Assembly: GCA_036279355.1 (NCBI GenBank)
Contig: DASUJH010000049.1
Location: 1 to 64,000 of the forward strand
Reading direction: 5' to 3'
Source of the DNA: Gemmatimonadales bacterium
GTDB lineage: Bacteria; Gemmatimonadota; Gemmatimonadetes; Gemmatimonadales; GWC2-71-9
DNA: 64,000 nt
This document shows, in pieces, positions 16,834-42,202 of this stretch. Under the pieces are notes generated by a model. That model saw only the letters and a program-made list of their open reading frames with translations, was not told the DNA's origin and ran no database searches. The translations under genes and the position numbers were made by a program. The first letter of the stretch is position 1; every line of letters begins with the position of its first letter.

Positions 16834-17439
16834 TCACCGCGAGTAGTACTCGATGACGAGCGGCAACGCGCAGACGATGGGCACCTGATCGGCCGACGGC
16901 AGCTCTCTCAAACGGACGCGGAAGGCCTCGGGCTCGACCTCGAGATAGCCGGGCGGCTTGCCCCCGGCGCGAGTGGCATCCACGATCTGCGGAATGCCGC
17001 GACTCCGCTCCGCCACCGAGACCACGTCGCCCGGCCGCACCTCGTAGGCTGGCACGCTCGTCCGCCGGCCATTCACCAGAATGTGTCCATGGCGCACGTA
17101 CTGGCGCGCGGCGAAGACGGTGCGGGCAAAGCCGGCGCGGAGCACCACCGCATCGAGCCGGGTCTCGAGCAGCTGCACCAGCGTGCCGGCCGTGTTGCCC
17201 GGAATGGCCGCGGCACGGATGAAATAGTTCCGAAGCTGGCGCTCGCCGATGTTGTACTGGGCGCGGAGCCGCTGCTTCTCCAGGAGCTGGCGCTTGTAGT
17301 TCGACTGCTTGCCGGGCCGGCGACTCTGGCCGTGCTGGCCCGGGGGGTAGGGTCGCCGGTCGAGGTACTTGGCCGACTTGGGCGTGAGCGTGATGCCGAG
17401 CCGGCGCGCGATCTTGATCTTGGGTCCGTTGAGGTCCAT
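16834..17439 (-). CDS. rpsD: 30S ribosomal protein S4
   Basis: A 201-residue protein aligned end to end with bacterial uS4. The N-terminal region includes GPKIKIARRLGI and RRPYPPGQHGQSRRPGKQSNY. The S4 RNA-binding motif ETRLDAVVLRAGFARTVFAARQYVRHGHILVNG lies near residues 91-123, and the C-terminus ends VIEYYSR. It organises the 5' domain of 16S rRNA and takes part in translational fidelity. The zinc-binding Cys residues of the C+ paralogue type are absent. It stands outside any ribosomal protein operon, between recQ and mntH. Confidence 0.97.
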   Translation of the reverse strand: MDLNGPKIKIARRLGITLTPKSAKYLDRRPYPPGQHGQSRRPGKQSNYKRQLLEKQRLRAQYNIGERQLRNYFIRAAAIPGNTAGTLVQLLETRLDAVVLRAGFARTVFAARQYVRHGHILVNGRRTSVPAYEVRPGDVVSVAERSRGIPQIVDATRAGGKPPGYLEVEPEAFRVRLRELPSADQVPIVCALPLVIEYYSR

Positions 17440-21375: not shown

Positions 21376-22335
21376 TCAGGCCACCGCGGGGTCGAGCAGC
21401 GCGAGCTCGCCGGCATCGGCATCGAGCCGCGCGCGCACGCCGAGCGGGAGGGTCCACTGCTCGTCCATGTGTCCGATGGGAAATCCGCGTGCGACGGGCA
21501 CCCCGAGCGGCGCCAGATAGTGCTCGAGCACATCGTCGAGATCGAGGCCGCCATCGGAAGCGCGAGGCATTTCGGTGAACTGTCCCACGACCACACCTGC
21601 CACGCCGGCGAGCACGCCCGCAAGCCGCAGATGCGAGAGCATGCGGTCGATGCGGTACAGCTCCTCGCCCACGTCCTCCAGGAACAGGAGCGCGCCGGCG
21701 AGATCGGGAAACCAGCGGGTGCCGACGAGACACTGGAGCAGCGAAAGATTGCCGCCCGCGAGCGGGCCCTCGGCGCGGCCCCCGCGAAGCGTGGCGATGC
21801 GCGGCGCGCGGGGCGCCAGCACGTCGGGCGGGGGCGGGACGCGCTCCAGCCGGCCGGCCGGCTCCGCCGAGCCGAGCACGCGCTCGAAGTGGCGGCGGGT
21901 GAACGCGCCGAGCGGCTGGCGCGCGGTGGGGCCGTGAAAGGCGACGACGCGGGTCTCGCCGGTGATGGCATTGAGCAACACGCTCACGTCGGAAAACCCG
22001 ACGACCGGCTTGGGCCGCCGCGCGAGCGCTGCGAAATCGACGCCGTCCAGAATGCGGGTGAGTCCATAGCCGCCGCGAAGGCACCAGACGGCGTCGATCG
22101 AACCGTCGCCGAGCGCGGCGTTGAGATCGGCCAGCCGCTCGGCGTCGGTGCCCGCGAGGTAACCGTGCCGGCGGGCAGCGTTGGGCCCTGGCACCGGCTC
22201 GTAGCCCAATGCGCGGCAGAGCTCGGCTGCGCGAGCGTGATCGTCGCGCTCGGGGAGCGGCCCCGAGGGTGCGATGAGCGCGACGCGGCACCCCGCGGCG
22301 AGGCGCGGCGGACGGATGACGGCTTTTGACCCCAT
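21376..22335 (-). CDS. ldcA: LD-carboxypeptidase (peptidase family S66)
   Basis: A 319-residue enzyme of the LdcA/MccF family, which trims the terminal D-Ala from peptidoglycan tetrapeptides or cleaves related amide bonds. The N-terminal part has VALIAPSGPLPERDD and AVWCLRGGYGLTRIL. The Ser nucleophile is in VVGFSDVSVLL, a candidate Glu lies in the region LFLEDVGEELYRIDRML, and the catalytic His is in FPIGHMDEQWTLPLG. The ATG at 22335 is preceded by GGAG at a 5-base distance, which favours it over the GTG at 22341. No signal peptide, consistent with cytoplasmic recycling of wall peptides. Confidence 0.9.
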   Translation of the reverse strand: MGSKAVIRPPRLAAGCRVALIAPSGPLPERDDHARAAELCRALGYEPVPGPNAARRHGYLAGTDAERLADLNAALGDGSIDAVWCLRGGYGLTRILDGVDFAALARRPKPVVGFSDVSVLLNAITGETRVVAFHGPTARQPLGAFTRRHFERVLGSAEPAGRLERVPPPPDVLAPRAPRIATLRGGRAEGPLAGGNLSLLQCLVGTRWFPDLAGALLFLEDVGEELYRIDRMLSHLRLAGVLAGVAGVVVGQFTEMPRASDGGLDLDDVLEHYLAPLGVPVARGFPIGHMDEQWTLPLGVRARLDADAGELALLDPAVA

Positions 22336-22980: not shown

Positions 22981-24144
22981 ATGACGTTTCCGCAGCTCTG
23001 GCCGGCCCTGCCATGGCTGGTCCCCTACTTCACGCTGCCCCGGCTGGCCCGCGGCACGCCCGATCTCTCGAATGCGCCGCCCGGTTCGGGGCGCACGGTG
23101 AGCATCGTCATACCGGCGCGCGACGAGTCCGCCACGCTCGAGACGGTTCTCCGCTCGCTGCTCGCGAGCGAGTACCCCAAGCTCGAGATCATCGTGGTGG
23201 ACGACCGATCGAGTGACGACACCGCCGCGATTGCGGAGCGGATCGCCGGCGGCGATCCTCGCGTCCGCCTCGTGCGGGGCGCGGAGCTGCCGGCGGGATG
23301 GTTCGGCAAGCCGTGGGCGTGCGTGCAGGGCTATCGCGCGGCCGCCGGCGAGCTGGTCGCCTTCACCGACGCGGACACCCGGCACGAGCCCGATTTCCTG
23401 GGGCACGCCGTGGGCGCGCTCGAGGCCGAGCGGGCCGATCTCGTCACCGTGGCCGCACACCAGCGGTGCGACACGTTCTGGGAGCGGGTCGTGATGCCTC
23501 AAATCTGGCTGCTGCTCGGCCTCCGATACAATCCGGAGCGGGTGAACCGGGCCACGCGCGCGCGCGACGTGATCGCCAACGGGCAGTTCCTGCTGGTGAC
23601 CCGCGCGGGCTACGAGGCCGCCGGCACCCACCAGTCGGTGCGCGGCGAGGTGGCCGAAGACGTGGCGCTGGCGCAGGAGTTCCTCCGGCACGGCCGCAAG
23701 CTGCATCTTGCCTATGCGGGGCGGCTCATCGAGACCCGCATGTATCGCGGGCTCGCGCACCTGATCGAAGGCTGGTCGAAGAACTTCTACCTGGGCGGCC
23801 GGCGCAGCTTTCCCGAGGAGCCGGTGCTGCGCGCGCTCATGCCGTGGCTGCTGGCCGGCGTGATGGGGTTCTGGCTGGCGCCGGTGGTGGTCGCCCTCTG
23901 TTGGGCGCTCGGGGGATCGGTGGGTGGGCTCGGACCGGCCGCGCTCGCGGCGGCCGCGCTCACCGCCGGGTTCTGGGCACTCATGTCGTTCGGGATGGGA
24001 ATCCCGCCGATCTACGGACTCGCGTATCCGCTGGGTGCGGCGATGGTGCTCTACATCGCGGCCCGCTCCACCTGGCGCGGCGCGCGCCACGTGGAGTGGA
24101 AGGGCCGCGTCTACCGGACCGACGCGGATTCGGGCGCGGCCTAG
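22981..24144 (+). CDS. Family 2 glycosyltransferase, membrane-associated
   Basis: A 387-residue GT-A fold transferase. SIVIPARDESATLETVL (41-57), the nucleotide-binding DDRSSDD (74-80) and the metal-binding DADT (D130, D132) are in place, followed by the acceptor region with EDVALAQEFLRHGRK. Three to four C-terminal TM segments (about 285-365) anchor it. The layout matches CrtQ-like and hopene-associated HpnB-type GT2 enzymes, but no carotenoid or hopanoid gene is adjacent. Its TAG stop lies in a CTAG shared with the stop of the convergent secreted-protein gene. Confidence 0.85.
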   Translation: MTFPQLWPALPWLVPYFTLPRLARGTPDLSNAPPGSGRTVSIVIPARDESATLETVLRSLLASEYPKLEIIVVDDRSSDDTAAIAERIAGGDPRVRLVRGAELPAGWFGKPWACVQGYRAAAGELVAFTDADTRHEPDFLGHAVGALEAERADLVTVAAHQRCDTFWERVVMPQIWLLLGLRYNPERVNRATRARDVIANGQFLLVTRAGYEAAGTHQSVRGEVAEDVALAQEFLRHGRKLHLAYAGRLIETRMYRGLAHLIEGWSKNFYLGGRRSFPEEPVLRALMPWLLAGVMGFWLAPVVVALCWALGGSVGGLGPAALAAAALTAGFWALMSFGMGIPPIYGLAYPLGAAMVLYIAARSTWRGARHVEWKGRVYRTDADSGAA

Positions 24145-24925: not shown

Positions 24926-27900
24926 GTGCAACCGCGATCGTGGGGCTCCCCGGAGCGGAGCCGCCGTCGCGTGGGTCTCGAGTCGGTCCTCACCTCGCTC
25001 AAGCGGCTGGACGACTTGCCCCGCCTCATCTCGGCGCTGGGCCACGAAGCGCGGTGGGAGCCCGCGCCCGAGGGCGCGTGGCAGGAAGGAGCCTGGCCCG
25101 AAAGGCTGGTGATCCGCGCCGCGCTCGTCGGGCGCGCGGGCGAGCTGCCGTGGTATGGCATCGAGGCGCGCGATGCGCCGCGCGCCGCGCGTGCGGTGGC
25201 GCGGCGGCTCGCGGGTTGGGGCCGCACGGGCGGCGTGCTGGCCATCGCGCCCGCGGCGCGAGAGCTCGCCGCGGCCGTGGCGTTCGGGGACATCCCCCAC
25301 GTCGCGTGCAGCCTCGATGCGCCCGAGGGCCTCGGCCTCGCGTGCCTCGAGCGGCTTCGGCGTGGGCCCGATGACGGCGGTGTGCGCGGGGCGCTGGCCG
25401 CCGCCGCGCACGCCGCCGAGGCGCTAGCGGGCGAGGCGGTGGGGCGGCGGTTCTTCCGTGCGTTCCGCGCCACGCTCGAGCGGATGGCCGCGGCACTGCC
25501 CGCTCCCTGCCCTGCCGAAGACCGCCACAACCTGGCGCTGCTGCAGCTCACCCGCGTGCTCTTCCTCTATCTCGTGCAGAGCAAAGGGTGGCTCGACGGG
25601 CAGCCGGACTTTCTCGCTCGGCAGGTGGACCGCTGCCTGAGCCGCGGGCGGCGGATCGAGCGCGATCTCCTGAGGCCGCTCTTCTTCGGCACGCTCAATC
25701 GCCCGATGGCGGAGCGGTCCCGCCTTCCGCGCGGGTTCGGCCGCGTGCCCTTCCTCAACGGCGGACTCTTCGAGCCGCACCCCCTCGAGCGGCACTGGCC
25801 GGTCGCGCTGCCGAGCGCCATCTGGCGCGATGCGTTCGACGACCTGTTCGAGCGGTTCCGGTTTGCGGCGGGCGAAACCGGCCGTCCGGGCGTGATCGCG
25901 CCCGACATGCTGGGGCGGGTGTTCGAGGGCGTGATGGAGCCGGCGGCGCGGAGCCGGAGCGGCACGTTCTACACTCCCGCCGCGCTGGTGCGAAGCTTGG
26001 TGCGTGCCGGGCTCGTGGCGTTGCTGGCCGAGCGGCTTCGCTGCGCGGCGCCGCGGGCGGAACGGCATCTCGATGAACGAAGCTCGGCGGCGCGGCAGGC
26101 CCTGCACCACGTCACGCTGCTCGACCCCGCGGTAGGGTCCGGCGCCTTTCTCCTCGGCGCGCTCGATCTCCTGGCGACGCTCGCTGCTGGAGACCGTTCC
26201 GTCTGGCGGGCGCGGCGCCGGGTGCTGCGCCGCTCGCTCTACGGCGTCGACCTCAATCCCGCAGCGGTGCGGCTCACCGAGCTCAGGCTCTGGCTCGCGG
26301 TCATCGCCGACGATCCTGCGGACGCTCCCGAGCGCATCGAGCCACTTCCCAATCTCGATTGTCTCGTGCGTCAGGGCGACAGCTTGATCGATCCACTCGG
26401 CGCCGGCGCCGGCGGCGCGGTCACGCGGGAGGCCTCGGCCGCGCTCGCGCGGCTGCGCCATCGGCTCGTCGCGGCGAGCGGTCGCGAAAAGCGCGAGCTC
26501 GCGCGCGAGCATCGGCGGGCTGAGTCACGCGCGTTCGCGGATTCGCTCACGGCGGCGGAGGCGCGGCTCGCGGCTCGCATCCGCCGGTGCATCGAGGAGG
26601 GCCGGGGCTGCACGCTCTTTGGTGAGCGGCGGGGGCTCGATACCGCGCTCCGCAGCGAGCTTGACGGGCTCAGATCCGAGCGGCGCGCGCTCCGGCTCGT
26701 GCGGCGCCGCTTCGAGCGCGAGGGCGAGCTCCCCTGGTTCCACTACGAGAGCCACTTCGCCGACGTCTTTGCTGCGGGCGGCTTCGACGTCGTGGTCGGC
26801 AATCCGCCGTGGGTCCGGGCCGAGCGCATCGCGCCGGAGCAGCGGGCCCGGCTTGCGGCGCGCTATCGCTGGTGGCGCTCGGGCGTGTCGCGCGGGTTCG
26901 CAAACCGGCCGGACCTCTCGCTTGCGTTTGTCGAGCGGAGTTGGGAGCTGGCCCGGCCGGGCGGCGCGCTCGCGTTGCTGGTGCCGGCCAAGCTCGCGAC
27001 GGCGGCATACGGCACGCGGGCCCGCCATGCGCTCGCCACCTCGGCCACGCTGCACGCGGTGGCCGATTTTACCGGCCGGGCCGAAGCGGCATTCGAGGCC
27101 ACGGTGTATCCGATGGCGTTGGTCGCGACCAAGTCGGCGCCGCCGCCCGGCCACTGCGTGCGCGCGGTGCTCGCTGCGCACGAGGCGCCGGAGGCGCCGC
27201 AGGCGACGCTTGCGGGCGGCGCGCCGTGGGTGTTGGCCCGCGGGCCGGACCAAGCCGCGTTGCAAGCCATCCGCGCCGCGCATCCTCGCCTCGGCGATCG
27301 GCTCGGCTGCCATCTTGGAGTCAAGACCGGCGCCAACGCGGTATTCCTCAACCCGCGGGCACCGATCGAGCCCGAGCTGCTTCGCTGGGCCGTTCGAGGG
27401 CGCGACCTGGCACCGTTTCGCGCGGGGCGGCACGCGCGCCTGCTCTGGCCCTGCGACCAAGCGGGCGGCGCGCTCGGCGCCCTCCCCTGCCTCGCACACG
27501 CGTACCTGTCCGCCCATGAGAAACGGCTCCGCGCGCGCACGGACTACGCCGGCGGCCCCGCCTGGACGCTCTTCCGCACGGCGCCGGCCACCGCGCGGTG
27601 CCGGATCGTCTGGGCCGACCTCGCGCGCCGGCTCACGGCAGCGCCGCTGCTTGCTCCAGACACCGAAGATCAGATCCCGCTCAACACCTGCTACGTGGCG
27701 CCCGCGCCCGATCCGCTCGCCACGCTCGCCGTGGCCGCATGGCTCAACTGCACCTGGGTTCGCGCGGTCGCACGGCTCGGCGCGAGTGCCGCATCCGGCG
27801 GATTCGCGCGCTTCAGCGCGGGGGTGGTGGCCGCGTTGCCGCTGCCCGACGCCGTGCTCCCCGACGCCGACCTCGCCGCGCTCGCCCGTGACGCGTGCAC

Positions 27901-28018
27901 CGGCCGGCGCATTCAGGGCGACATCGATGACATCACCGCCCGCCATCTCGATCTCACGCCCGCCCTCCGCCGCGCGCTTGCCCTGGTGGATGGCGTCGGC
28001 GCCGACGATCGTCGCTGA
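24926..28018 (+). CDS. Eco57I-type N6-adenine DNA methyltransferase, large
   Basis: A 1030-residue protein expected to methylate adenine in DNA. The N-terminal ~340 residues form an unassigned domain (IRAALVGRAGELPWYGIEARD; a helical run with RVLFLYLVQSKGWL, then GRVPFLNGGLF). The methylase core starts at FYTPAALVRSLV (about 347), with motif I DPAVGSGAF (Asp400) and catalytic NPPW (626-629). A C-terminal target-recognition-like region follows. The NGGLF and FYTP motifs are typical of Eco57I/BREX PglX/DISARM DrmMI relatives. No nuclease motif is evident. GTG 24926 is the longest start; GTG 24971 is plausible. Its stop overlaps the helicase gene by 29 bases. Confidence 0.85.
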   Translation: MQPRSWGSPERSRRRVGLESVLTSLKRLDDLPRLISALGHEARWEPAPEGAWQEGAWPERLVIRAALVGRAGELPWYGIEARDAPRAARAVARRLAGWGRTGGVLAIAPAARELAAAVAFGDIPHVACSLDAPEGLGLACLERLRRGPDDGGVRGALAAAAHAAEALAGEAVGRRFFRAFRATLERMAAALPAPCPAEDRHNLALLQLTRVLFLYLVQSKGWLDGQPDFLARQVDRCLSRGRRIERDLLRPLFFGTLNRPMAERSRLPRGFGRVPFLNGGLFEPHPLERHWPVALPSAIWRDAFDDLFERFRFAAGETGRPGVIAPDMLGRVFEGVMEPAARSRSGTFYTPAALVRSLVRAGLVALLAERLRCAAPRAERHLDERSSAARQALHHVTLLDPAVGSGAFLLGALDLLATLAAGDRSVWRARRRVLRRSLYGVDLNPAAVRLTELRLWLAVIADDPADAPERIEPLPNLDCLVRQGDSLIDPLGAGAGGAVTREASAALARLRHRLVAASGREKRELAREHRRAESRAFADSLTAAEARLAARIRRCIEEGRGCTLFGERRGLDTALRSELDGLRSERRALRLVRRRFEREGELPWFHYESHFADVFAAGGFDVVVGNPPWVRAERIAPEQRARLAARYRWWRSGVSRGFANRPDLSLAFVERSWELARPGGALALLVPAKLATAAYGTRARHALATSATLHAVADFTGRAEAAFEATVYPMALVATKSAPPPGHCVRAVLAAHEAPEAPQATLAGGAPWVLARGPDQAALQAIRAAHPRLGDRLGCHLGVKTGANAVFLNPRAPIEPELLRWAVRGRDLAPFRAGRHARLLWPCDQAGGALGALPCLAHAYLSAHEKRLRARTDYAGGPAWTLFRTAPATARCRIVWADLARRLTAAPLLAPDTEDQIPLNTCYVAPAPDPLATLAVAAWLNCTWVRAVARLGASAASGGFARFSAGVVAALPLPDAVLPDADLAALARDACTGRRIQGDIDDITARHLDLTPALRRALALVDGVGADDRR

Positions 28019-30341
28019 GTCGCTGGCCGCGGTGCCGGAGCCGCTCGCCACCGCACTCGAGGCCGGGCCGGCGGCCCCGGCGCGCGAGGTGGTCTCGGCG
28101 CTTGCGCGGAGCCTGGCACCCGCCGAAGCGGACGTCGGGGCACCCGCATGGCTCTGGCCCGAGCACCACCGGACATTGCGGCGCGTAGTCGCTGCCGTCC
28201 GTCGCCATCACGGCTGCATGCTGGCGGACCCGGTCGGGAGCGGCAAGACGTACGTGGCGCTCGCCGCGGCCGCGGCGCTCGGCGGCGGGCGTCCGGCGTG
28301 TTGCATCGTGCCCGCCGCGCTCGTGACCCAGTGGTGCAGGACGGCCCGGCGGCTGGGCGTGCCCGCCGTCGTCTGGTCGCACGAGCGGGTGAGCCGCGGG
28401 GGGCTACCTTGCGGCGCCATGGGACTCGTCGTGATCGATGAGTCGCACCACTACCGCAACCCCGACACGCGGCGCTACCGCGCGCTCGCGCCCTGGCTCG
28501 TGCGGCGCCGCGCGCTGTTGCTCACGGCGACGCCGACGGTGAACCGGCTGAGCGACGTCACGCACCAGCTTCGCCTGGTCGTGCGAGATGACGCGCTGGC
28601 TGTGCACGGCGTACCGTCACTCACGGCGATGCTCGATCAGGGCCCGCGCGGGCACCGCGTCCGCGCTCACGCCGGGGCATCGGGCGGCCGCGGCACATCC
28701 GGCACGACTTCGCCGGCGCACGCGGCACTCGGCCACGTCATCTTCACCCGCACGCTCACACGCGAGGAAGGACACCCGCGCCCTGCCGCTCTGGAGCGCG
28801 CCGTTCCGCTCGATGATGGGGACATGACCGCTGTCCTCCCACTGCTCAGCGAGCTGGATCGACTGCAACTGGCCGCAAACCCCGCCGTCGCCGGGCTCCT
28901 ACGCGGCGTGTTCTGGCACGCCGGCGCGTCGAGCCCGGCCGCGCTGCTCGCGGCACTCCGCCGCTATCGGCGCCTGCTGCTCCACGCGCGCGACGCCGAG
29001 CGCGCCGGCCTCAAGCCCGCGCGTGCCGAGCTGCTGCGCATGACGGGCGGCCTCGGCGAGCAACTGCTGCTCTGGGAGATGCTGGGTTCGACTGACGGCA
29101 GCGCCACCGGCGGACTCGCGCCCGGCGAGATCGCGCTCGACGATCTCGCACCGCTCGAGGTGCTGCTGTCGCGCGCGGCAGCGGCGGCCGACGCGCCGGA
29201 CGGCAAGGTGGCCAAGCTCGCCGAGCTCCTCGATGACGACCGCCCCACGCTCGTCTTCGCCGCCGCGCGCGGCACGGTGCGCCACCTGCGCGACCACCTT
29301 GCCGCCCGGCCGATCGCCTGGTGCACCGGCGCGGCCGCCGGTATCGGCCGGCTGCACGCGCCGCGGGACGCGGTGCTTGGGTGGTTCGCGCGGCGACAGG
29401 AGACGGATCGAAACCGGTCGCACATTCCGCTCGAGCTTGCGCCGCTGCATCTCGTCGCCACCGACGTACTCGCGGAAGGGCTCGACCTGCGCCGCGCCGC
29501 GCGGGTGGTGCACTACGACCTGGCATGGACGCCGGCGCGGCTGGCGCAGCGCGAAGGCCGGGCCCGCCGCGCGGCGTCGGCGCACGCCGAGGTCGAGCTG
29601 GTCCGGTTCCACCCAGCGCCGGCGGTCGAATCGCGGCTCAGGCAGCTCGCGGTCCTCGCGGCCAAGGATGCGCTTCCCGCCCAGGTGGGGCTCGGCTCCG
29701 CCGGCCGGCGCGCCTGGCAGTGGCGGGCCGACATCGCGGATCGATTCGCCGGCGGACCCGCTTCGGCCGGTGTGGCTGCGGTGCGGAGCGACGCGGCGGG
29801 CGTCCTCGCCGGATTCGCGCTGTCCATCGTGCCGGGGTCCGGGGAAGAGCCGGCGCTGGTCGGCACCTGGCTCCTCTGGCGCGACGCCCGCGGGCGCGTC
29901 ACACAGGATCCGGATCTCATCGCGGCGCGCCTCGACGCCGCGGCGACCCTGCCCGACGCGCCCGCGCCCGATCGCGCAGCCGTGACTCGCGCGCTCGACG
30001 CGCTCGGCCCGCCAATCCGCGACCGCATCCGCGCCGTCCGCACCGCGTACTGGGACGCGCCGACGCCCACGCCGTGCGCCCGCCGGCTGGTGGCGCGATT
30101 GCACGCGCTCACCCGGGCGGCGGCGCGGCGGCGCGATGCCGGAACGCTCGCGCGGCTCGAGCGCGCGCTGGACTTCGCCGCCGGCGGGCACACCGCAGGC
30201 GAGGCAATGATGATCGAGCAGATTGCCCGCGCCACGGACGCCGAGTTGCTCGCCGGGCTCGGCCGCCTGCCCCTGCCGGCCGGGCGCGGGGACGCCCTGC
30301 GGCCCACGCTCACCGGACTGGTGTTCTTCCGCCCGCCGTGA
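27990..30341 (+). CDS. SNF2/SF2-type helicase partner of the methyltransferase
   Basis: A 783-residue ATPase with Walker A GSGKT (83-87; DPVGSGKTYVAL), DESHHYRN (D150), TATPTVNRLSD, and a C-terminal RecA domain ending TDVLAEGLDLRRA and motif VI QREGRARR (about 520-527). This is a SNF2/RapA-like double-stranded DNA translocase layout. The ~240 residues after the motor are of unknown fold and show no nuclease motif. The ATG lies inside the end of the methyltransferase gene, so the two are cotranscribed and coupled. DISARM class 1 also pairs a SNF2 helicase (DrmD) with an adenine methylase (DrmMI), but its other genes are absent here. Confidence 0.83.
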   Translation: MASAPTIVAESLAAVPEPLATALEAGPAAPAREVVSALARSLAPAEADVGAPAWLWPEHHRTLRRVVAAVRRHHGCMLADPVGSGKTYVALAAAAALGGGRPACCIVPAALVTQWCRTARRLGVPAVVWSHERVSRGGLPCGAMGLVVIDESHHYRNPDTRRYRALAPWLVRRRALLLTATPTVNRLSDVTHQLRLVVRDDALAVHGVPSLTAMLDQGPRGHRVRAHAGASGGRGTSGTTSPAHAALGHVIFTRTLTREEGHPRPAALERAVPLDDGDMTAVLPLLSELDRLQLAANPAVAGLLRGVFWHAGASSPAALLAALRRYRRLLLHARDAERAGLKPARAELLRMTGGLGEQLLLWEMLGSTDGSATGGLAPGEIALDDLAPLEVLLSRAAAAADAPDGKVAKLAELLDDDRPTLVFAAARGTVRHLRDHLAARPIAWCTGAAAGIGRLHAPRDAVLGWFARRQETDRNRSHIPLELAPLHLVATDVLAEGLDLRRAARVVHYDLAWTPARLAQREGRARRAASAHAEVELVRFHPAPAVESRLRQLAVLAAKDALPAQVGLGSAGRRAWQWRADIADRFAGGPASAGVAAVRSDAAGVLAGFALSIVPGSGEEPALVGTWLLWRDARGRVTQDPDLIAARLDAAATLPDAPAPDRAAVTRALDALGPPIRDRIRAVRTAYWDAPTPTPCARRLVARLHALTRAAARRRDAGTLARLERALDFAAGGHTAGEAMMIEQIARATDAELLAGLGRLPLPAGRGDALRPTLTGLVFFRPP

Positions 30342-33931: not shown

Positions 33932-34128
33932 CTACGTGTCCCGAACCGGGCGCCAGGCGCCGTCGCCGTCCGTCGTCATCGGTTCCCCCATGTGCCGGCC
34001 TGCCATTTGCTCCCAGAGGAGCGGCCCGCATCGATAGCGCGCGCGGCGGGGAGACTGCGGTGACGCGACGCACGGACCGGGAGGCCGCCGCGCTGGAGCC
34101 CGCGTCCGGGCGCCGCTACGTTCCGCCC

Positions 34129-34785
34129 ATGCCGAGCATCCGCACCGTGCTGTTCGACCTGGATGGCACCCTCATCGATTCGATCCGGCTCATCCTCGAC
34201 AGCTATCACCACACCCTCGCCGAGCACGGCCTCCCCCCGCGCGACGACAGGGAGTGGCTCAAGCTCGTGGGGACGCCGCTCTCGTCGCAGTTCGCCGAGT
34301 GGAAGGACGATGCCGGCCGGCTCGAGGCGCTCATCGCCACCTACCGGGCGTACAACCTCGCGAACCACGATCGCATGGTGCGGGTGTATCCGGGCGTGGT
34401 GGACGCGGTGCGCGAAATCAAGGCGAGCGGATGCCAGACCGGTCTCGTCACCAGCAAGGCGCGCGCGGGCGCGCTCCGGGGCCTCCGTCTCGTGGGACTG
34501 GAAGCGCTGATGGACGTGCTGGTGTGCTGCGACGAGGTGGTGAACCCGAAGCCGCACCCCGAACCGGTCGAGCGCGCCGTCGCGTTGCTCGGAGCCGCGC
34601 CCGCCGAAACCGTGTACGTGGGCGACAGCATCCACGACATGCGCTCGGGGCGTGCGGCAGGGGTGCGGACGGCGGCCGCGCTCTGGGGGCCGTTCGGCCG
34701 GGAGCACCTCGAGGCGGCGGAACCCGATTTCTGGCTGGAAACGCCACGCGACCTGGTGCGGCTGGTGCAAGATCCGATGCGATAG
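34129..34785 (+). CDS. HAD-superfamily phosphatase (PpaX/Gph-like)
   Basis: A 218-residue HAD subfamily IA hydrolase. Motif I is FDLDGTLIDS (9-18), motif II is the Thr-Ser of TGLVTSKAR, motif III includes Lys of NPKPHPEPV and motif IV is VGDSIHDMRSG. The cap insertion is helical and of the size of pyrophosphatase PpaX and phosphoglycolate phosphatases. The ATG at 34129 was chosen over the upstream frame start at 34060 because the extra residues are Arg/Ala-rich. A cytoplasmic housekeeping role is likely; substrate not determinable. Confidence 0.83.
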   Translation: MPSIRTVLFDLDGTLIDSIRLILDSYHHTLAEHGLPPRDDREWLKLVGTPLSSQFAEWKDDAGRLEALIATYRAYNLANHDRMVRVYPGVVDAVREIKASGCQTGLVTSKARAGALRGLRLVGLEALMDVLVCCDEVVNPKPHPEPVERAVALLGAAPAETVYVGDSIHDMRSGRAAGVRTAAALWGPFGREHLEAAEPDFWLETPRDLVRLVQDPMR

Positions 34786-34862
34786 TTACTGAGCGGGGCC
34801 GCGGCGTGGGCGGCGTGGACCGGTTGGAACGAGGTGGGGCGGCGAATGATAGACGAGGAAAG

Positions 34863-34935
34863 CTGGGGCGGCTGGGGTCGAACCAGCAACCTCCCGGTTA
34901 ACAGCCGGGCGCTCTGCCGATTGAGCTACACCCCA
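34863..34935 (-). tRNA. tRNA-Asn (GTT)
   Basis: A 73-base cloverleaf read on the minus strand. The acceptor TGGGGTG pairs with CGCCCCA, with one T-G pair. The D stem is GCTC/GAGC, the anticodon stem CCCGG/CCGGG with loop CTGTTAA (anticodon GTT), and the T stem GCTGG/CCAGC with loop TTCGACC. The discriminator base is G. The 3' CCA is not encoded. Confidence 0.95.
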
Positions 34936-35161: not shown

Positions 35162-35719
<558 letters not shown>

Positions 35720-35729
35720 GGAGATACCC

Positions 35730-38120
35730 ATGGCAACGCTCTTCGGCTCCGGCATCAAGCGGCGCGAGGATCCCCGGCTCATCACCGGCGCAGCGACGTA
35801 CACCGACGACGTGAAGCTCCCGGGGCTCACCTACGCGGCGCTCCTCCGCAGTCCCTACGCCCACGCGAAAATCACCCGGCTCGACGTGTCGGCGGCGCGC
35901 AAGGCGCCCGGCGTCGTCGCGGTGTACACCGGCGCCGACATCAAGGACCGCGTAGCCCCGGTGCCCTGCGCCTGGAATCCGCCCAACTGCGACCTCAAGA
36001 CTCCGCCCCATCCGCTCCTCGCCTGGGACAAGGTGCGCTACGTGGGCGACGGCGTGGCGCTCGTCGTGGCCGAGTCGCGCGCCGCGGCGCGGGATGCGCT
36101 CGATCTGATCGAGGCGGACTACGACCCGCTCCCCGCCGGCGTGGACCCGGAGAAGATGGCGCAGCGCGGCGCACCGCAGCTCCACGCCGAGGTCCCCAAC
36201 AACATCGGCTTCACGTGGGTGGTGTCGGGCGGCGACGCGGCCAAGGCGTTCAACGAGGCGCCGGTCAAGGTGAGCCAGCGCATCGTCCAGCAGCGGCTCG
36301 CGCCGACCGCGATCGAATGCCGCGCGGCCGTGGCGAGCTACAACAAGGGCTCGGGCCAGCTCACACTCTGGGTCACGAGCCAGAACCCGCACATCCACCG
36401 CTTCCTCTGCTCGGTCATGCTGCAGATCCCCGAGCACCGCATCCGGGTGATCGCGCCGGAGGTGGGCGGCGCTTTCGGCAGCAAGATCCCGGCGTACGCC
36501 GACGAGGCGCTCGCCTGTGTGGCCTCGATGGACCTGGGCCGGCCGGTCAAGTGGACGGAGGATCGGTCGGAGAACTACAAGGTCACCATTCACGGCCGCG
36601 ACCACGTCGAGCACGTCGAGATGTGCGGCACGCGGGACGGCAAGATCACCGGCCTCCGCACGCGGGTGTACGCCGGCCTCGGCGCCTACGCGTCGACCGG
36701 CGGCCCGGGCATCCCGACGATCCTGCACGGCCTGGTCTACTCGGGGGCGTACACCATCCCCAACATCCACGGCACGGTGTACGGCGTGTACACCAACGGC
36801 GTGCCGGTGGATGCCTATCGCGGCGCGGGGCGGCCGGAGGCGGCGTATCTCGTCGAGCGCCTGGTCGACCTCTTCGCGCGCGAGATCGGGATGGATCCGG
36901 TCGAGGTGCGGCGCAGGAATTTCATCGGGCACGAGAAGTTCCCCTACACCACGGCCACGGGTCTCACCTACGACTCGGGCAACTACGAGCCGGCGCTCGA
37001 CAAGGCGCTCGGCATGATCGACTACAAGCAGTTCCGCGCCGACCAGGCCGAGGCCCGGAAGCGGGATCGCTATCTCGGCATCGGGGTCGTGAGCTACATC
37101 GAGATCTGCGGCCTCGGGCCGTCGCAGGTGGCCGGCGCGGTCGGCTTTGGCGGCGGACTCTACGACTCGGCCATCGTGCGCGTGTATCCCACCGGCGTCG
37201 TCCGGGTGTACATCGGCGCGTCGCCGCACGGCCAAGGCGAGGAAACCACGTTCGCCCAGATCGTGGCGGACGAGTTCGGCTATCCGGTCGAGAACGTCGA
37301 GATCCTTCACGGCGACACCGACAACACGGCCCAGGGCTGGGGCACGTACGGCAGCCGCAGCACCGCGGTCTGCGGCTCGGCGGTGAAGGTGGCGGCGGGC
37401 AAGGTGCGCGAGAAGGCCAGGAAGATCGCGGCGCACCTCATGGAGGCCAACGAGGCCGACGTCGAGTGGAAGGACGGCAAGTTCTCGGTGAAGGGCTCGC
37501 CCGATCAGGGCAAGACGTTCGCCGAGGTGGCGCTCATGGCCAACGTCGCGTGGAACATGCCGCCGGGTGTCGAGCCCGGGCTCGAGGCGAGCGCGTTCTT
37601 CGATCCGAGCAACTTCGTCTATCCATTCGGCACGCACGTCTGCACGGTGGACGTGAACCCCGACACCGGTGAAGTGCGCATCCTGCGCTACATCGCGGTG
37701 GACGACTGCGGGCCGCGGATCAACCCGACGATCGTCGACGGCCAGGTGCACGGTGGGGTCGTCCAGGGCATCGGCGAAGCGATGCAGGAGATCGTCATTT
37801 ACGACGAGGACGGCCAGCTCGCGAGCGGCACCATGATGGACTACGCCGTCCCGCGCGCGAGCCAGATGCCGCACATCGAGACCGACCACACCGTGACGCC
37901 ATCGCCGGTGAATCCGCTGGGTGTGAAGGGCGTCGGCGAGGCGGGTACGATCGCCTCGGCGGCCGCGGTGGTGGGTGCGGTGTGCGATGCGCTGGCGCCG
38001 CTCGGCATTCGACATATCGACAAGCCGCTCACTCCCGCTCGCGTATGGGCTGCGATTCAGGCGGCGAAGGGCGGGAACGGCGGCAGGGGCGGCAACGGCG
38101 GTAAGGAGGTGGGGCGATGA
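35730..38120 (+). CDS. coxL: Form II CO dehydrogenase-type large (Mo-cofactor) subunit
   Basis: A 796-residue molybdopterin-cytosine-dinucleotide subunit. The active-site loop reads AYRGAGR (362-368), the signature of form II (putative) CoxL, not the AYxCSFR of genuine aerobic CO dehydrogenase. The conserved Mo-site glutamate lies in KGVGEAGTI (Glu737). GGAFGSK (near 250) and [14 protein letters not shown] are further cofactor-binding motifs. Form II enzymes have been linked to CO oxidation in some bacteria and to other hydroxylations in others, so the substrate is open. A Gly-rich C-terminal tail is encoded by a purine-rich tract that also supplies the coxM ribosome site. Confidence 0.93.
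38067..38113 (+). repeat. Purine-rich GGNGG tract at the coxL/coxM junction
   Basis: Imperfect repeats of GGCGGNA/GGGGCGGC encode the Gly/Asn/Lys tail of CoxL and end in AAGGAGG, the ribosome-binding site for coxM 8 bases ahead of its ATG. The composition is like simple-sequence drift and is unlike the 8-bp-period family found elsewhere. Confidence 0.5.
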
Positions 38121-38974
38121 TTCCGGCGGCGTTCGAGTACGTACGGGCGGCGTCGCTGCGCGATGCGCTGACCGCGCTGGCGGCGGAGGACGGGACAAAG
38201 GTGCTGGCGGGCGGGCACAGTCTGCTGCCGATGATGAAGTTCCGGCTGGCCCAGCCGGGGCGGCTGGTCGATATCGCGCATCTCGGCGAGCTGCGCGGCG
38301 TCACGGAGCACCGGCGGGGAGCGCGAATCGGCGCTGCTACGACATACCGGGATCTGCTCGACTCCGACCTGCTGCGCGAGCGGTTTCCGATCATCGCCGA
38401 GGCCACGAAGTCGATCGGTGACGTGCAGGTGCGGAACCGCGGCACCGTTGGCGGGAGCCTGGCGCACGCCGATCCGGCGTCGGACATGCCGGCGGTGATG
38501 CTGGCGCTCGACGCCACGTTCACGCTCCGGTCGAAGAGCGGCCGGCGCTCGGTCAAGGCGCGCGAATTCTTCAAGGGGCCGTTCTCGACGGACCTGAAGG
38601 AGAACGAGCTGCTCATCGACATCGTGCTTCCGCCGCTGCCGAAAGGCGCCGGCACCGCATACGTGAGCTTCGACCAGGCCGCGTCGGGGTACGCGATCGC
38701 GGCGGCGGCGGCCGTGGTGGCGCTCTCGCGCAAGACGGTGAAGCAGGCGGCCGTGGCGCTCACCGGCCTGGCCGACGTTGCCCGGATGGTGAGCGCAGCG
38801 GACCAGCTCGTCGGCACCAAGGGCGAGCCCGACGCGATCCGCAAGGTGGCGGCCGCCGCGCCCGAGGGCGTCGAGATCAACGGCGACATCCACGCACCGG
38901 CCGAGTATCGGCGGCACTTGGTTACGGTGGCGGTGCGCGACGCGGTCACCAAGGCGCTCGAGCGGGCGCGCTAA
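38117..38974 (+). CDS. coxM: CO dehydrogenase-type medium (FAD) subunit
   Basis: A 285-residue FAD-binding subunit of the molybdenum hydroxylase. FAD contacts are AGGHSLLPMMK (about residues 33-43) and the RNRGTVGGSLAHADPASD loop (about 108-125), followed by the CO-dehydrogenase flavoprotein C-terminal domain. It hands electrons to the respiratory chain or another acceptor. The start overlaps the coxL stop (ATGA) and has a strong AAGGAGG site. The gene order S-L-M is that of form II clusters. Confidence 0.94.
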   Translation: MIPAAFEYVRAASLRDALTALAAEDGTKVLAGGHSLLPMMKFRLAQPGRLVDIAHLGELRGVTEHRRGARIGAATTYRDLLDSDLLRERFPIIAEATKSIGDVQVRNRGTVGGSLAHADPASDMPAVMLALDATFTLRSKSGRRSVKAREFFKGPFSTDLKENELLIDIVLPPLPKGAGTAYVSFDQAASGYAIAAAAAVVALSRKTVKQAAVALTGLADVARMVSAADQLVGTKGEPDAIRKVAAAAPEGVEINGDIHAPAEYRRHLVTVAVRDAVTKALERAR

Positions 38975-38997
38975 CGAACGCGGGCGTTTACGCGGTC

Positions 38998-39675
38998 GTG
39001 CTCGCCGCGGGGCGGGGCGAGCGATTCGCCGGCGCAGCGCCCGCCGCCGGCGCGCAGCACGCGCCGGACGACAAACTCGCGGCGCCGCTCCGCGGGCGGC
39101 CTCTCCTGGCCCACGCGCTCGACGGCGTGCGCCGTGCCCGCGAGGCGGGCGCGCTCGCCGGCGGGTGCGTGGTCGTTCCCGCGCTCGGCGCGGCCGATAC
39201 GCGTGGCGGCGGCGCCGAGCGCGCCCATGCCAAGCGCGCCGAGCTCGCCCGCGCAGCAGGCCTCGCGCCGGTCGAGAACCCCGATCCGTCCGCGGGGCTC
39301 GGCAGCTCGCTCCGCGTGGGGCTCGCATGGCTCGCGCGCACCATCGAGCCCGCCGGGCCCGCGGCGGCCGTCGTTTTTCTCGGTGACCAGCCGTCGGTGC
39401 GCGCGGACGTGGTGGCGCCGCTGGTCGATGCGTGGGGTCAGGGCCGCACACTCGCGGTGCGGCCGCGCTATGCCGATGCGCCAGACGAGCCGGGCCACCC
39501 GATGCTGGTCGACCGCTCGCTCTGGCCGCTTGCCTATGCGCTCGCGGGTGACGCGGGACTCGGCCCATTGCTCGCCGCGCGGGGGATACTGGTAAAGGTG
39601 GTGGACGTCGCCGGCCGGAACCCGGACATCGACACCCCGGCGGACCTGCTCAACCTCGAGGATCCTGGATCATGA
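38998..39675 (+). CDS. MocA-like nucleotidyltransferase (Mo-cofactor cytidylyl transfer)
   Basis: A 225-residue GT-A fold nucleotidyltransferase. The N-terminal loop LAAGRGERF and the Lys of DDKLAAPLRGRPLL bind the nucleotide. LGDQPSVRADV and PDIDTPADLLNL are the later conserved blocks of MocA/MobA-like enzymes. In cox and xdh clusters this protein makes molybdopterin cytosine dinucleotide from CTP. The GTG at 38998 starts just after the first strand (the upstream in-frame triplets read YAVV), so the true start may be a non-standard codon closer to the coxM stop. Coupled to coxG (ATGA). Confidence 0.82.
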   Translation: MLAAGRGERFAGAAPAAGAQHAPDDKLAAPLRGRPLLAHALDGVRRAREAGALAGGCVVVPALGAADTRGGGAERAHAKRAELARAAGLAPVENPDPSAGLGSSLRVGLAWLARTIEPAGPAAAVVFLGDQPSVRADVVAPLVDAWGQGRTLAVRPRYADAPDEPGHPMLVDRSLWPLAYALAGDAGLGPLLAARGILVKVVDVAGRNPDIDTPADLLNLEDPGS

Positions 39676-40133
39676 AGCTGCAGTTCTCGGGCGCTCCGGA
39701 GATCGCGACCACTCGCCAGCACCTCTGGCAGCGCATGATGGACCCGCAGTTCGTGGCGGCCTCCGCGCCCGGGGTCGAATCGGTCGAGACGATAGATCCG
39801 ACACACTTCAAGGTCGTCTCCGCGTTCGGCGTGGGCGCGATCAAGGTCCGCTTCCGGCTCGACGTGGAGCTGTTCGACGTCGTCGAGAAGGAGAGCGCCA
39901 AGATGCGCGCGCGCGGCAAGGCGCCGGGGTCCAACGTGGACGTGGTGGCGGGGATGGCCATCCGCGAGCTCGGCCCCAATCGCATGCAGCTCGAGTGGAC
40001 CGCGGACAGCGACGTGAGCGGCACCATCGCGAGCGTCGGCGCGCGGTTGCTCGAGGGTACGGCACGCAAGCTGACCGAGCAGTTCTGGACCGACTTTGCC
40101 CGTCGGGTCCAGGCGGAATCCCCCGCGGCATAA
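39672..40133 (+). CDS. coxG: CoxG-type SRPBCC protein
   Basis: A 153-residue START/SRPBCC-fold protein that opens MKLQFSGAPEIATTRQHLWQ and has DPQFVAASAPGVESVE, the typical carbon-monoxide-dehydrogenase subunit G pattern. CoxG tethers the enzyme to the membrane or delivers a lipid quinone in studied systems. The usual C-terminal hydrophobic helix is missing; the protein ends at QAESPAA, so it may be soluble. Start overlaps the MocA-like gene stop. Confidence 0.85.
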   Translation: MKLQFSGAPEIATTRQHLWQRMMDPQFVAASAPGVESVETIDPTHFKVVSAFGVGAIKVRFRLDVELFDVVEKESAKMRARGKAPGSNVDVVAGMAIRELGPNRMQLEWTADSDVSGTIASVGARLLEGTARKLTEQFWTDFARRVQAESPAA

Positions 40134-40135
40134 CG

Positions 40136-41218
40136 TTGCGGGCAGCACGTCTCACCGCCGTCGAGCTTGGCGCCATGCAGCCGCTCGAGCTCGACGGCGC
40201 CGTGTTGCTGGCCCCGGTGCGGGTCCCGGCGGGCACGCTGCCCAAGGGGCGCCGCCTCGACGCGGCCGGCGCCGCCGCGCTCATCGACGCGGCACGTGCC
40301 GGGGGTATCGCGCGCGCCGTACGCCTCGCGTGGCCCGATCCGGACGATCTGCACGAAGACGAAGCGGCCGAGCGGCTGGCGCTCGCGGCGGGCGGCGGGG
40401 GCATCGAGCTCAAACCGCCGCGTCAGAGCCGGCTCGACCTCGCGGCGGCGTGGGATGGCGTAGTGCGCGTGCGCGCCGGCGCGCTCCATCGGGTGAACGC
40501 GATCGATCCGCTCGAGGTGTTCACTCTCTACCAGGGCCAGTCGGTCGCGCGCGGGCAGGTGGTCTGCTCGGTCAAGGTGGCGCCGCACCTGGTGCCGGGG
40601 CGCGCGGTCGACGCGGGCGTAGCGATCGCGCGCGAGGAAGGCCCGCTGGTCGAGGTGCGGCCGTTTCGCCCGATGGAGGTCGGCGCCATCGCCGCCGAGG
40701 AGGCGATCACACCCGATGCGATCGAGCGGTTCGAGGCGGGGGCGCGAGCCAAGGTCGAGGCGCTCGGGTCCACGTTCAGCGGCACCATTGCCGTGCCCGA
40801 CGGCGACCCGGCCCGCGCACGGGCGGGCGCACGGGCGGCGCTCATCATGCTCACGCTGGAGCGGCGGCTGCCCGTGGTACTCGTGGGCGGCGTGTCGGCC
40901 GGCGACCCGTTGTCTCCGTTCATCGCGGCGCTCGCTTCACTCGGCGGCGCGATGGTGCGGCGCGGCGTGCCGGCGCACCCCGGATCGATGATCTGGCTCG
41001 CGCGATTGAACGACACGCAGATCCTCGGCCTCCCCCAATGCGGCATGTTTACCATGGCCACCGCGGCCGATCTCGTGCTGCCGCGGCTTCTCACCGGCGA
41101 AATCCTCACGGCCGAGAGTCTGGCCGATCTGGGCCACGGCGGCCTGCTCTCGCGCGACATGCGCTTCCGCTTTCCGGCGTACGCCCGCGATCTCGCGTCG
41201 CCCTCGGGAGAGGCGTGA
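40136..41218 (+). CDS. Molybdopterin-binding (MoaB/Mog-like domain) protein of the cox cluster
   Basis: About 360 residues. The N-terminal half (VELGAMQPLELDGAVLLAPVRVPAGTLPKGRRL) is MoeA-like. The C-terminal part (KVAPHLVPGRAVD; VVLVGGVSAGDPLSPFIAALASLGGAMVRRG; GSMIWLARLNDTQILGLPQCGM) is the MoCF-biosynthesis fold that binds molybdopterin. Such proteins accompany cox/xdh genes and probably help in Mo insertion or cofactor maturation. The start is uncertain: TTG at 40136 follows the coxG stop directly, and GTG at 40160 or ATG at 40175 are alternatives. Confidence 0.75.
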   Translation: MRAARLTAVELGAMQPLELDGAVLLAPVRVPAGTLPKGRRLDAAGAAALIDAARAGGIARAVRLAWPDPDDLHEDEAAERLALAAGGGGIELKPPRQSRLDLAAAWDGVVRVRAGALHRVNAIDPLEVFTLYQGQSVARGQVVCSVKVAPHLVPGRAVDAGVAIAREEGPLVEVRPFRPMEVGAIAAEEAITPDAIERFEAGARAKVEALGSTFSGTIAVPDGDPARARAGARAALIMLTLERRLPVVLVGGVSAGDPLSPFIAALASLGGAMVRRGVPAHPGSMIWLARLNDTQILGLPQCGMFTMATAADLVLPRLLTGEILTAESLADLGHGGLLSRDMRFRFPAYARDLASPSGEA

Positions 41219-41233
41219 CAATGGAGAGCCGAG

Positions 41234-42202
41234 ATGGGTGAGCGCCGCAATACGGATGGCCGTGACGCCGCGAGCGACGGCGCCAAGGGGCCGATGACCA
41301 TCGACCAGTTGCAGGCCGCCTTCGCCGCGCACGGCTACGTCGCCGACCGCGACCTCGCCACCGCGATCTTCCTGGCACTCGCGCTCGAGCGCCCGCTCCT
41401 GCTCGAAGGCGAAGCGGGCGTCGGCAAGACCGCCGTGGCGCAGACGCTGGCCCTGGCGCTCGGCGCCGAGCTGATCCGGCTGCAATGCTACGAGGGGATC
41501 GACATCGGCACCGCGGTGTACGAGTGGGACTACCCGCGGCAGATGCTCGAGATCCGCCTGCTCGAGGCGCGGGGCGAGGCCAAGTCGGCGGGGACGCGCA
41601 ACATTTTCAGCGAGGAGTTCCTCATCCGCCGCCCCCTGCTCCGCGCGCTCGAGCCGCACGCGGTGCCGCCGGTGCTGCTCATCGACGAGGTCGACCGCGC
41701 GGACGAGGAGTTCGAGGCGTTTCTGCTGGAGCTCTTGAGCGACTTCGCGGTGACGATTCCCGAAATCGGCACCATCGCGGCCTCACGCCCGCCGCGCGTC
41801 ATCCTCACGAGCAACCGCACACGCGAGGTGCACGACGCACTGAAGCGGCGCTGTCTCTATCACTGGATCGATTATCCCACCGCCGAGCGCGAGCGGGCCA
41901 TTCTGCACGCGCGCCTGCCGCGGGTGCCGGAGCAGCTCGCGGCGGAGGTCGTCGCCTTCGTGCAGCGGCTCCGCACCGCCGATCTCACGAAGGTGCCCGG
42001 CATCGCGGAGACGCTCGACTGGGCGGCCGCGCTCACCGCGCTCGATGCCCGGCGGCTCGAGCCGGCCGAGGTCGAGCAGACCCTCGGCGTCCTGCTCAAG
42101 TATCAGGAGGACGTGAGTGCGATGCGGGGCGGTGCCGCGCGGACGATGCTGGCGGAGACGCAGGTGAGCACGCCGAGCGCCTCGAGGGAGTCGATGCGGT
42201 AG
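41234..42202 (+). CDS. coxD: MoxR-type AAA+ ATPase CoxD
   Basis: A 322-residue AAA+ ATPase with Walker A GEAGVGKT (59-66), Walker B LLIDEVDRAD and sensor 1 ILTSNRTREVHDALKRRC. It is of the CoxD branch of MoxR proteins, which in Oligotropha-type clusters assists assembly of the Cu/S-Mo centre together with the VWA protein CoxE. Presence in a form II cluster suggests a more general metal-insertion role. The last 100 bases overlap the opposite-strand HAD gene, which separates coxD from coxE. Confidence 0.92.
   Translation: MGERRNTDGRDAASDGAKGPMTIDQLQAAFAAHGYVADRDLATAIFLALALERPLLLEGEAGVGKTAVAQTLALALGAELIRLQCYEGIDIGTAVYEWDYPRQMLEIRLLEARGEAKSAGTRNIFSEEFLIRRPLLRALEPHAVPPVLLIDEVDRADEEFEAFLLELLSDFAVTIPEIGTIAASRPPRVILTSNRTREVHDALKRRCLYHWIDYPTAERERAILHARLPRVPEQLAAEVVAFVQRLRTADLTKVPGIAETLDWAAALTALDARRLEPAEVEQTLGVLLKYQEDVSAMRGGAARTMLAETQVSTPSASRESMR

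Follow-up and report, generated by a model that had tools for sequence, protein, structure and literature searches.

The window, by which we mean the whole 64,000-nt stretch of DNA analyzed here, has a GC content of approximately 0.71 and derives from a 3.25 Mb genome. It carries two genes on the same strand whose ORFs share 29 bp, the first for an N6-adenine methyltransferase (MTase) and the second for an SNF2-family helicase. A preliminary description had read them as an Eco57I-type MTase and a 783-residue SNF2-like helicase overlapping by 29 bases, and the positions, overlap, and families were borne out, with Pfam matches to Eco57I (9.4e-23) and N6_Mtase (9.2e-11) for the MTase and to SNF2-rel_dom (1.7e-10) and Helicase_C (3.3e-10) for the helicase. 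Taking the first GTG (24926) as the start gives an MTase of 1030 residues (24926–28018, forward strand); conservation in relatives favors the GTG at 24971 as the true start, giving 1015 residues. The features of the locus are as follows:

21376–22335, reverse strand: LD-carboxypeptidase (S66), recurrent upstream flank
22981–24144, forward strand: family-2 glycosyltransferase, recurrent upstream flank (Pfam)
24971–28018, forward strand: Eco57I-class N6-adenine MTase, 1015 residues from the GTG at 24971 (Pfam Eco57I, 24-member alignment, AlphaFold2)
24971–25420, forward strand: MTase N-terminal part, residues 1–150, at the position of the MmeI nuclease domain and without a conserved catalytic residue
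25421–25900, forward strand: MTase helical spacer, MmeI_hel-like, residues ~151–310 (profile matches, AlphaFold2)
25901–27130, forward strand: catalytic MTase domain, residues ~311–720, with FYTP, DPAVGSGAF, GVD, and NPPW in invariant columns
27218–27895, forward strand: target-recognition domain, residues ~750–975, M.BseCI/CamA-like, well conserved within the phylum
27990–30341, forward strand: SNF2-family helicase, 783 residues (Pfam, alignment)
28137–29639, forward strand: helicase motor, residues ~50–550, with all motifs (alignment, profile)
29640–30338, forward strand: helicase C-terminal region, residues ~551–783, poorly conserved, no nuclease signature
34060–34785, forward strand: HAD phosphatase, recurrent downstream flank (31 loci, also in family f9)

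In an alignment of 24 relatives, the TP of FYTP, DPAxGSGAF, GVD, and NPPW of the MTase and GxGK, DExH, TD..EG, and QRxGRxxR of the helicase were invariant or nearly so, in agreement with the earlier reading of catalytic motifs in the former and a full set of motor motifs in the latter. The dN/dS values of the closest pairs were 0.13 to 0.26 for the MTase and 0.20 to 0.33 for the helicase, the larger dS values being near saturation. Because the motifs are nearly invariant in 24 relatives and dN/dS lies between 0.13 and 0.33, the pair is not a chance arrangement; judged from their sequences, both genes are under purifying selection.

The profiles matched by the MTase (Eco57I, DrmMI, type IIG, and PglX, from Pfam, PADLOC, and NCBIfam) are all broad, as are those matched by the helicase (SNF2, DrmD, DpdE, and PLD anti-phage helicases), and against NCBIfam every match of either protein fell far under the curated cut-off. 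The AlphaFold2 model of the MTase had a pTM of 0.75, with pLDDT below 50 at residues 1–150 and no resolved fold for residues 1–152. Its closest fold match was DNA-bound CamA (TMt 0.73), followed by M.BseCI, PglX, and MmeI, all of which are enzymes that both recognize and methylate DNA. MmeI_hel was matched in 10 of 24 MTase members, and the match to MmeI begins at profile position 197. MTase residues 1–340 and the helicase after residue 530 had previously been left unassigned; this description still holds for MTase residues 1–150, but residues ~150–310 form an MmeI-type helical spacer. The nearest solved sequence relative of the helicase is RapA, and the AlphaFold2 helicase model was poor (pLDDT 58) and uninformative outside the motor.

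The preliminary description had also seen no nuclease motif in either protein, and residue conservation upheld this: the alignment of relatives contained no conserved D, E, K, H, N, or Q in MTase residues 1–150 and no conserved catalytic-type residue after helicase residue 560. A phospholipase D-type (PLD) nuclease profile built from relatives had no match anywhere in the window. A nuclease concealed in the MTase N-terminus or the helicase C-terminus was thus rejected for want of conserved catalytic residues and PLD similarity.

Distribution and inheritance of the gene pair

The MTase profile matched 143 of the 159 high-quality genomes of Gemmatimonadales, representing 55 of 57 sampled genera, and an MTase search across the phylum gave matches in 215 of 395 genomes. 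The gene is single-copy in each genome, except for copies split over contig pieces. A helicase search found matches in 136 of 151 relatives, although the weaker matches, those in family f2, might represent different SNF2 proteins. At the search level used, the f1 genomes that lack the MTase gave no helicase match either. The pair is missing from approximately 10% of the high-quality genomes of the order and is therefore not essential. Genomes of the order without the MTase include several reduced ones of 1.8 to 2.4 Mb. Of 161 genomes surveyed from the order, 25 carry photosynthetic reaction-centre genes, in family f2, and their carriers include reduced genomes (2.1–2.3 Mb) without the pair (G227 and G288). 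In one relative (G112, genus g47, a single 4.72-Mb contig), PufM is identical over 252 residues to chain M of PDB 7o0u, the Gemmatimonas phototrophica complex, and the order was inferred from this match to be Gemmatimonadales. One genome that is 97% complete (G065, C1:35644-36675) retains only an N-terminal fragment of the MTase with no helicase match, possibly a loss of the pair in progress.

The 61 loci examined came from five families within the class, with one f5 fragment in addition, and 59 of them contained both genes. The helicase followed the MTase on the same strand in 58 of these 59, separated at most by the PLD remnant that some f4 loci carry, so that the adjacency noted in the window is a recurrent one. 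The sole locus of a different kind (L164, G105:C3:25000-44000) has 11.9 kb inserted between the two genes. Genes for an LD-carboxypeptidase, an alpha/beta hydrolase, a GT2 glycosyltransferase, and Nramp/DtxR-type proteins recur upstream across families, and a HAD phosphatase and a sigma/anti-sigma-like cluster recur downstream; the HAD gene lies downstream of the pair even in f9, outside the order. Elsewhere in the window, a ribosomal protein S4 gene (16834–17439, reverse strand), possibly a second copy, lies beside Nramp/DtxR-type genes and away from any ribosomal operon seen. A single tRNA-Asn gene (34862–34935, reverse strand) and a molybdenum hydroxylase cluster of the CO/xanthine dehydrogenase type (35162–42202, forward strand; large subunit, 35730–38120) are also present.

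In an unrooted MTase tree, each family formed one clade (SH-aLRT 98–100), the rows of the phylum formed one clade (100), and the labels required only seven changes, the smallest number possible; on these grounds, the sequences indicate that the pair is vertically inherited. The congruent tree and the synteny rule out order-wide spread by many transfers. The idea of a variable anti-phage element in a defense-island-like setting consequently had to be abandoned: the pair is instead near-universal, single-copy, vertically inherited, and fixed in place among housekeeping genes.

Compared with the nuclease-bearing relatives, the phylum shows a much better conserved target-recognition domain. At catalytic-domain identities of 0.45 to 0.55, the identity of this domain was 0.37 within the phylum versus 0.23 among nuclease-bearing relatives, and at catalytic-domain identities of 0.55 to 0.65 the values were 0.50 versus 0.29. 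Restriction MTases usually diversify in this domain. The specificity of the MTase thus looks to have been held within the phylum; the recognition domain is conserved, not invariant, and there may be several target motifs.

Relatives outside the phylum and the PLD nuclease domain

A scan of IMG/VR with the MTase profile yielded 26 loci, at 23 of which a related SNF2 helicase was also encoded. Of those helicases, 22 were approximately 1060 to 1280 residues long with a PLD-type N-terminal leader, and all four examined with Pfam matched PLDc_2 (4e-9 to 3e-12). A PLD-helicase also adjoins the MTase in four genome loci from other phyla (Fibrobacterota and Actinomycetota). Together, L214–L238 from IMG/VR and L254–L256 and L258 represent a widespread two-gene system of PLD-SNF2 helicase and type IIG-like MTase with very varied GC, which PADLOC covers piecemeal as C3a139 and REase_MTase_IIG. 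At the 23rd IMG/VR locus (L213, IMGVR_UViG_3300003315_000001), on a contig classed as viral, the MTase groups with Gemmatimonadales and the helicase, only 520 residues long, has no PLD; this is probably a bacterial chromosome fragment, or else a truncated copy. At E 1e-90, the MTase was found in none of 249 Pseudomonadota and one of 247 Actinomycetota genomes sampled. Plasmid and phage collections gave only partial, ~30% identical, type IIG-like matches, and a contig scan with a single helicase sequence returned only generic SNF2 helicases, mostly adjoining DISARM-like MTases.

DISARM itself offers one explanation of the pair, namely that DrmMI and DrmD are left over from a class 1 locus. DrmMI is indeed the top PADLOC match of the MTase, and DrmD is the top NCBIfam match for those helicases examined from f3, f4, and f9, but the DrmD scores were only 57 to 162 bits (57 for the window helicase) against a cut-off of 610. 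The PLD-helicase/MTase relatives scored far higher, at up to 351 versus ~163 bits for the helicase and up to 487 versus 141 bits for the MTase. Moreover, the gene order is opposite to that of the DISARM-like loci, and the MTases of DISARM stand apart as a separate, long-branched clade, which makes such a derivation highly improbable. The helicase tree places DISARM among the rows of the phylum, a placement that carries a long-branch warning and was given no weight.

The helicases of f1 to f3 have a leader of approximately 40 to 100 residues ahead of motif I with no PLD, and the PLD profile found no such domain in the loci of the order examined. By contrast, four genomes of family f4 have a separate ORF of 176 to 186 residues between the MTase and the helicase, and in a fifth f4 locus (L193) the remnant is fused to the helicase. 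The four ORFs were the top matches to the PLD profile among 6733 ORFs from all loci (E 7.8e-7, 2.3e-5, 0.055, and 1.1), and a profile-profile comparison of the five f4 remnants with PLD gave 97.5% and E 7e-12 over 174 columns. At the catalytic places, however, PDF replaces HxK, and mostly G(A/P)xYF replaces GSxN; HxKxY and GSxN are present in 22 of 22 PLD leaders of outside relatives versus 0 of 11 f4/f9 remnants. By its sequence, then, the f4 ORF is a decayed, catalytically dead PLD. The f9 helicase has a leader of approximately 180 to 210 residues without PLD motifs, which matched the f4 remnant weakly (E 0.009) and PLD not at all in profile comparison. With an unrooted tree, the chief argument for loss rather than gain of PLD is the dead f4 remnant.

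Since the relatives that resemble the presumed ancestor carry a nuclease, the pair could also still restrict DNA with the help of a nuclease acting in trans, its gene lying at another place in the genome. The PLD-free state of the examined loci of the order speaks against it, as does the dead PLD kept between the f4 genes, where cleavage has already been lost; in addition, DrmA was found in just 9 of 161 genomes of the order and is absent from the genome of the window. We regard this arrangement as very unlikely.

Proposed origin and present function

We consider it probable (roughly 60%) that the pair is the domesticated descendant of a restriction-modification-like system: cleavage was lost, and what remains throughout the lineage is an MTase that marks DNA, together with the DNA translocase. 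The evolutionary side of this reading is well supported, and for the present function we infer an epigenetic mark or non-cutting exclusion. The ancestor would have been a fusion of PLD nuclease and SNF2 helicase encoded with a type IIG-like adenine MTase. The PLD active site would have been lost in the ancestry of the lineage of the phylum and the domain later deleted. What remained, the MTase and the translocase without its nuclease, would have been passed on vertically and come to form a core locus of the Gemmatimonadales chromosome.

As an enzyme of this family, the MTase is expected to flip out an adenine within an asymmetric site and methylate it. It would then modify a single asymmetric motif, conserved for the most part, throughout the genome, as orphan MTases such as CamA do, and related species would share the motif because the recognition domain is conserved. 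The overlapping genes and their joint absence suggest that the two proteins work together. More speculatively, the helicase would translocate on double-stranded DNA at or near target sites and displace or reposition bound proteins; it might be drawn to sites that are unmethylated or hemimethylated, or open occupied DNA to the MTase. On this view, the pair would serve chiefly to set an epigenetic mark, together with a remodeling motor, and not to cleave DNA.

The main rival to the epigenetic reading is defense without cutting, in which the MTase guards self DNA and the translocase recognizes incoming DNA that is unmodified and blocks its replication or transcription in the manner of BREX exclusion. 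Descent from a restriction-like system, the active sites apparently kept in both enzymes, and the fold and profile similarity of the MTase to PglX/BrxX would all suit such a role. Defense genes, however, tend to be patchily distributed and to diversify in their specificity, whereas this locus is near-universal, single-copy, and fixed, its recognition domain is conserved, and no other BREX or DISARM gene is nearby; we judge this rival unlikely, though less so than the other alternatives. Of the anti-phage or epigenetic module originally proposed, the epigenetic half fits better, and a sporadic anti-phage role fits poorly with a fixed core locus descended from a PLD system.

A further-reaching possibility, which we raise tentatively and at somewhat less than even odds, is that domestication at the base of the lineage of the phylum gave the order a core epigenetic apparatus for writing methylation and for remodeling proteins bound to DNA. 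As part of it, and just as tentatively, the writer and its SNF2 partner might be likened to a chromatin writer plus SNF2 remodeler, of which they would be a bacterial counterpart.

Orphan MTases are thought to derive from restriction systems minus the nuclease, yet the stages in between have seldom been observed. In this case three states coexist: PLD is intact in outside relatives, a dead remnant in f4, and missing in Gemmatimonadales. If our reading is correct, the pair would also write an order-wide adenine methylation mark in a little-studied phylum.

Comparison with known systems

The literature searched held no description of this MTase-helicase module, in keeping with the earlier suggestion that it might be undescribed, although its parts are of known kinds. 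What appears new is a core, nuclease-free pair with its motor kept and its decay series visible.

Membership in DISARM, BREX, or Hma was rejected on scores and missing partner genes, and the neighborhood scan confirmed the noted absence of other DISARM and BREX genes. Class 1 DISARM (DrmMI, DrmD) likewise places an SNF2 helicase beside an adenine MTase and is matched weakly by profiles; however, the neighborhood of the pair contained no drmA, drmB, or drmC, and the pair has the opposite gene order and belongs to a separate clade. BREX shares an N6-MTase whose fold matches, PglX/BrxX, but PglX scored 52 bits against a cut-off of 900, and neither BrxC nor PglZ was a neighbor. MTase-helicase systems centered on a DUF499 ATPase have been described, and BR MTases belong to the type-3 BREX class with DUF1156 (PMC12839542). 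The BR system (Hma) also combines an N6-MTase with a helicase, but the DUF499 ATPase was not found in the window scan and does not recur beside the pair in relatives.

Type IIL MmeI has the same arrangement of spacer, MTase, and recognition domain, but it has an active N-terminal nuclease, whereas the window MTase has no detectable nuclease and its helicase is a separate gene. The pairs of PLD(HKD)-SNF2 and type IIG-like MTase (C3a139 'HKD+Snf2' and REase_MTase_IIG, related to NCBIfam NF042964) have homologous shared domains in adjacent genes, a feature also found in the window. They differ in bearing an N-terminal PLD with HxK and GSxN, which is lacking in the window and in f1 to f3 and dead in f4, in usually placing the helicase before the MTase, and in their occurrence on scattered IMG/VR contigs (GC 0.31–0.61) instead of at a fixed chromosomal locus.

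CamA, the orphan MTase of Clostridioides difficile, is the best fold match, a single MTase with its own recognition domain that is conserved across its lineage. To our knowledge, CamA (~577 residues, without the N-terminal 150) has no SNF2 partner gene, and the orphan MTases Dam, CcrM, and CamA are not known to have an ATP-driven motor; a motor kept with the MTase sets the window pair apart from them. With orphan MTases it shares intact active-site motifs, no cognate nuclease gene at the pair, and lineage-wide conservation with vertical inheritance.
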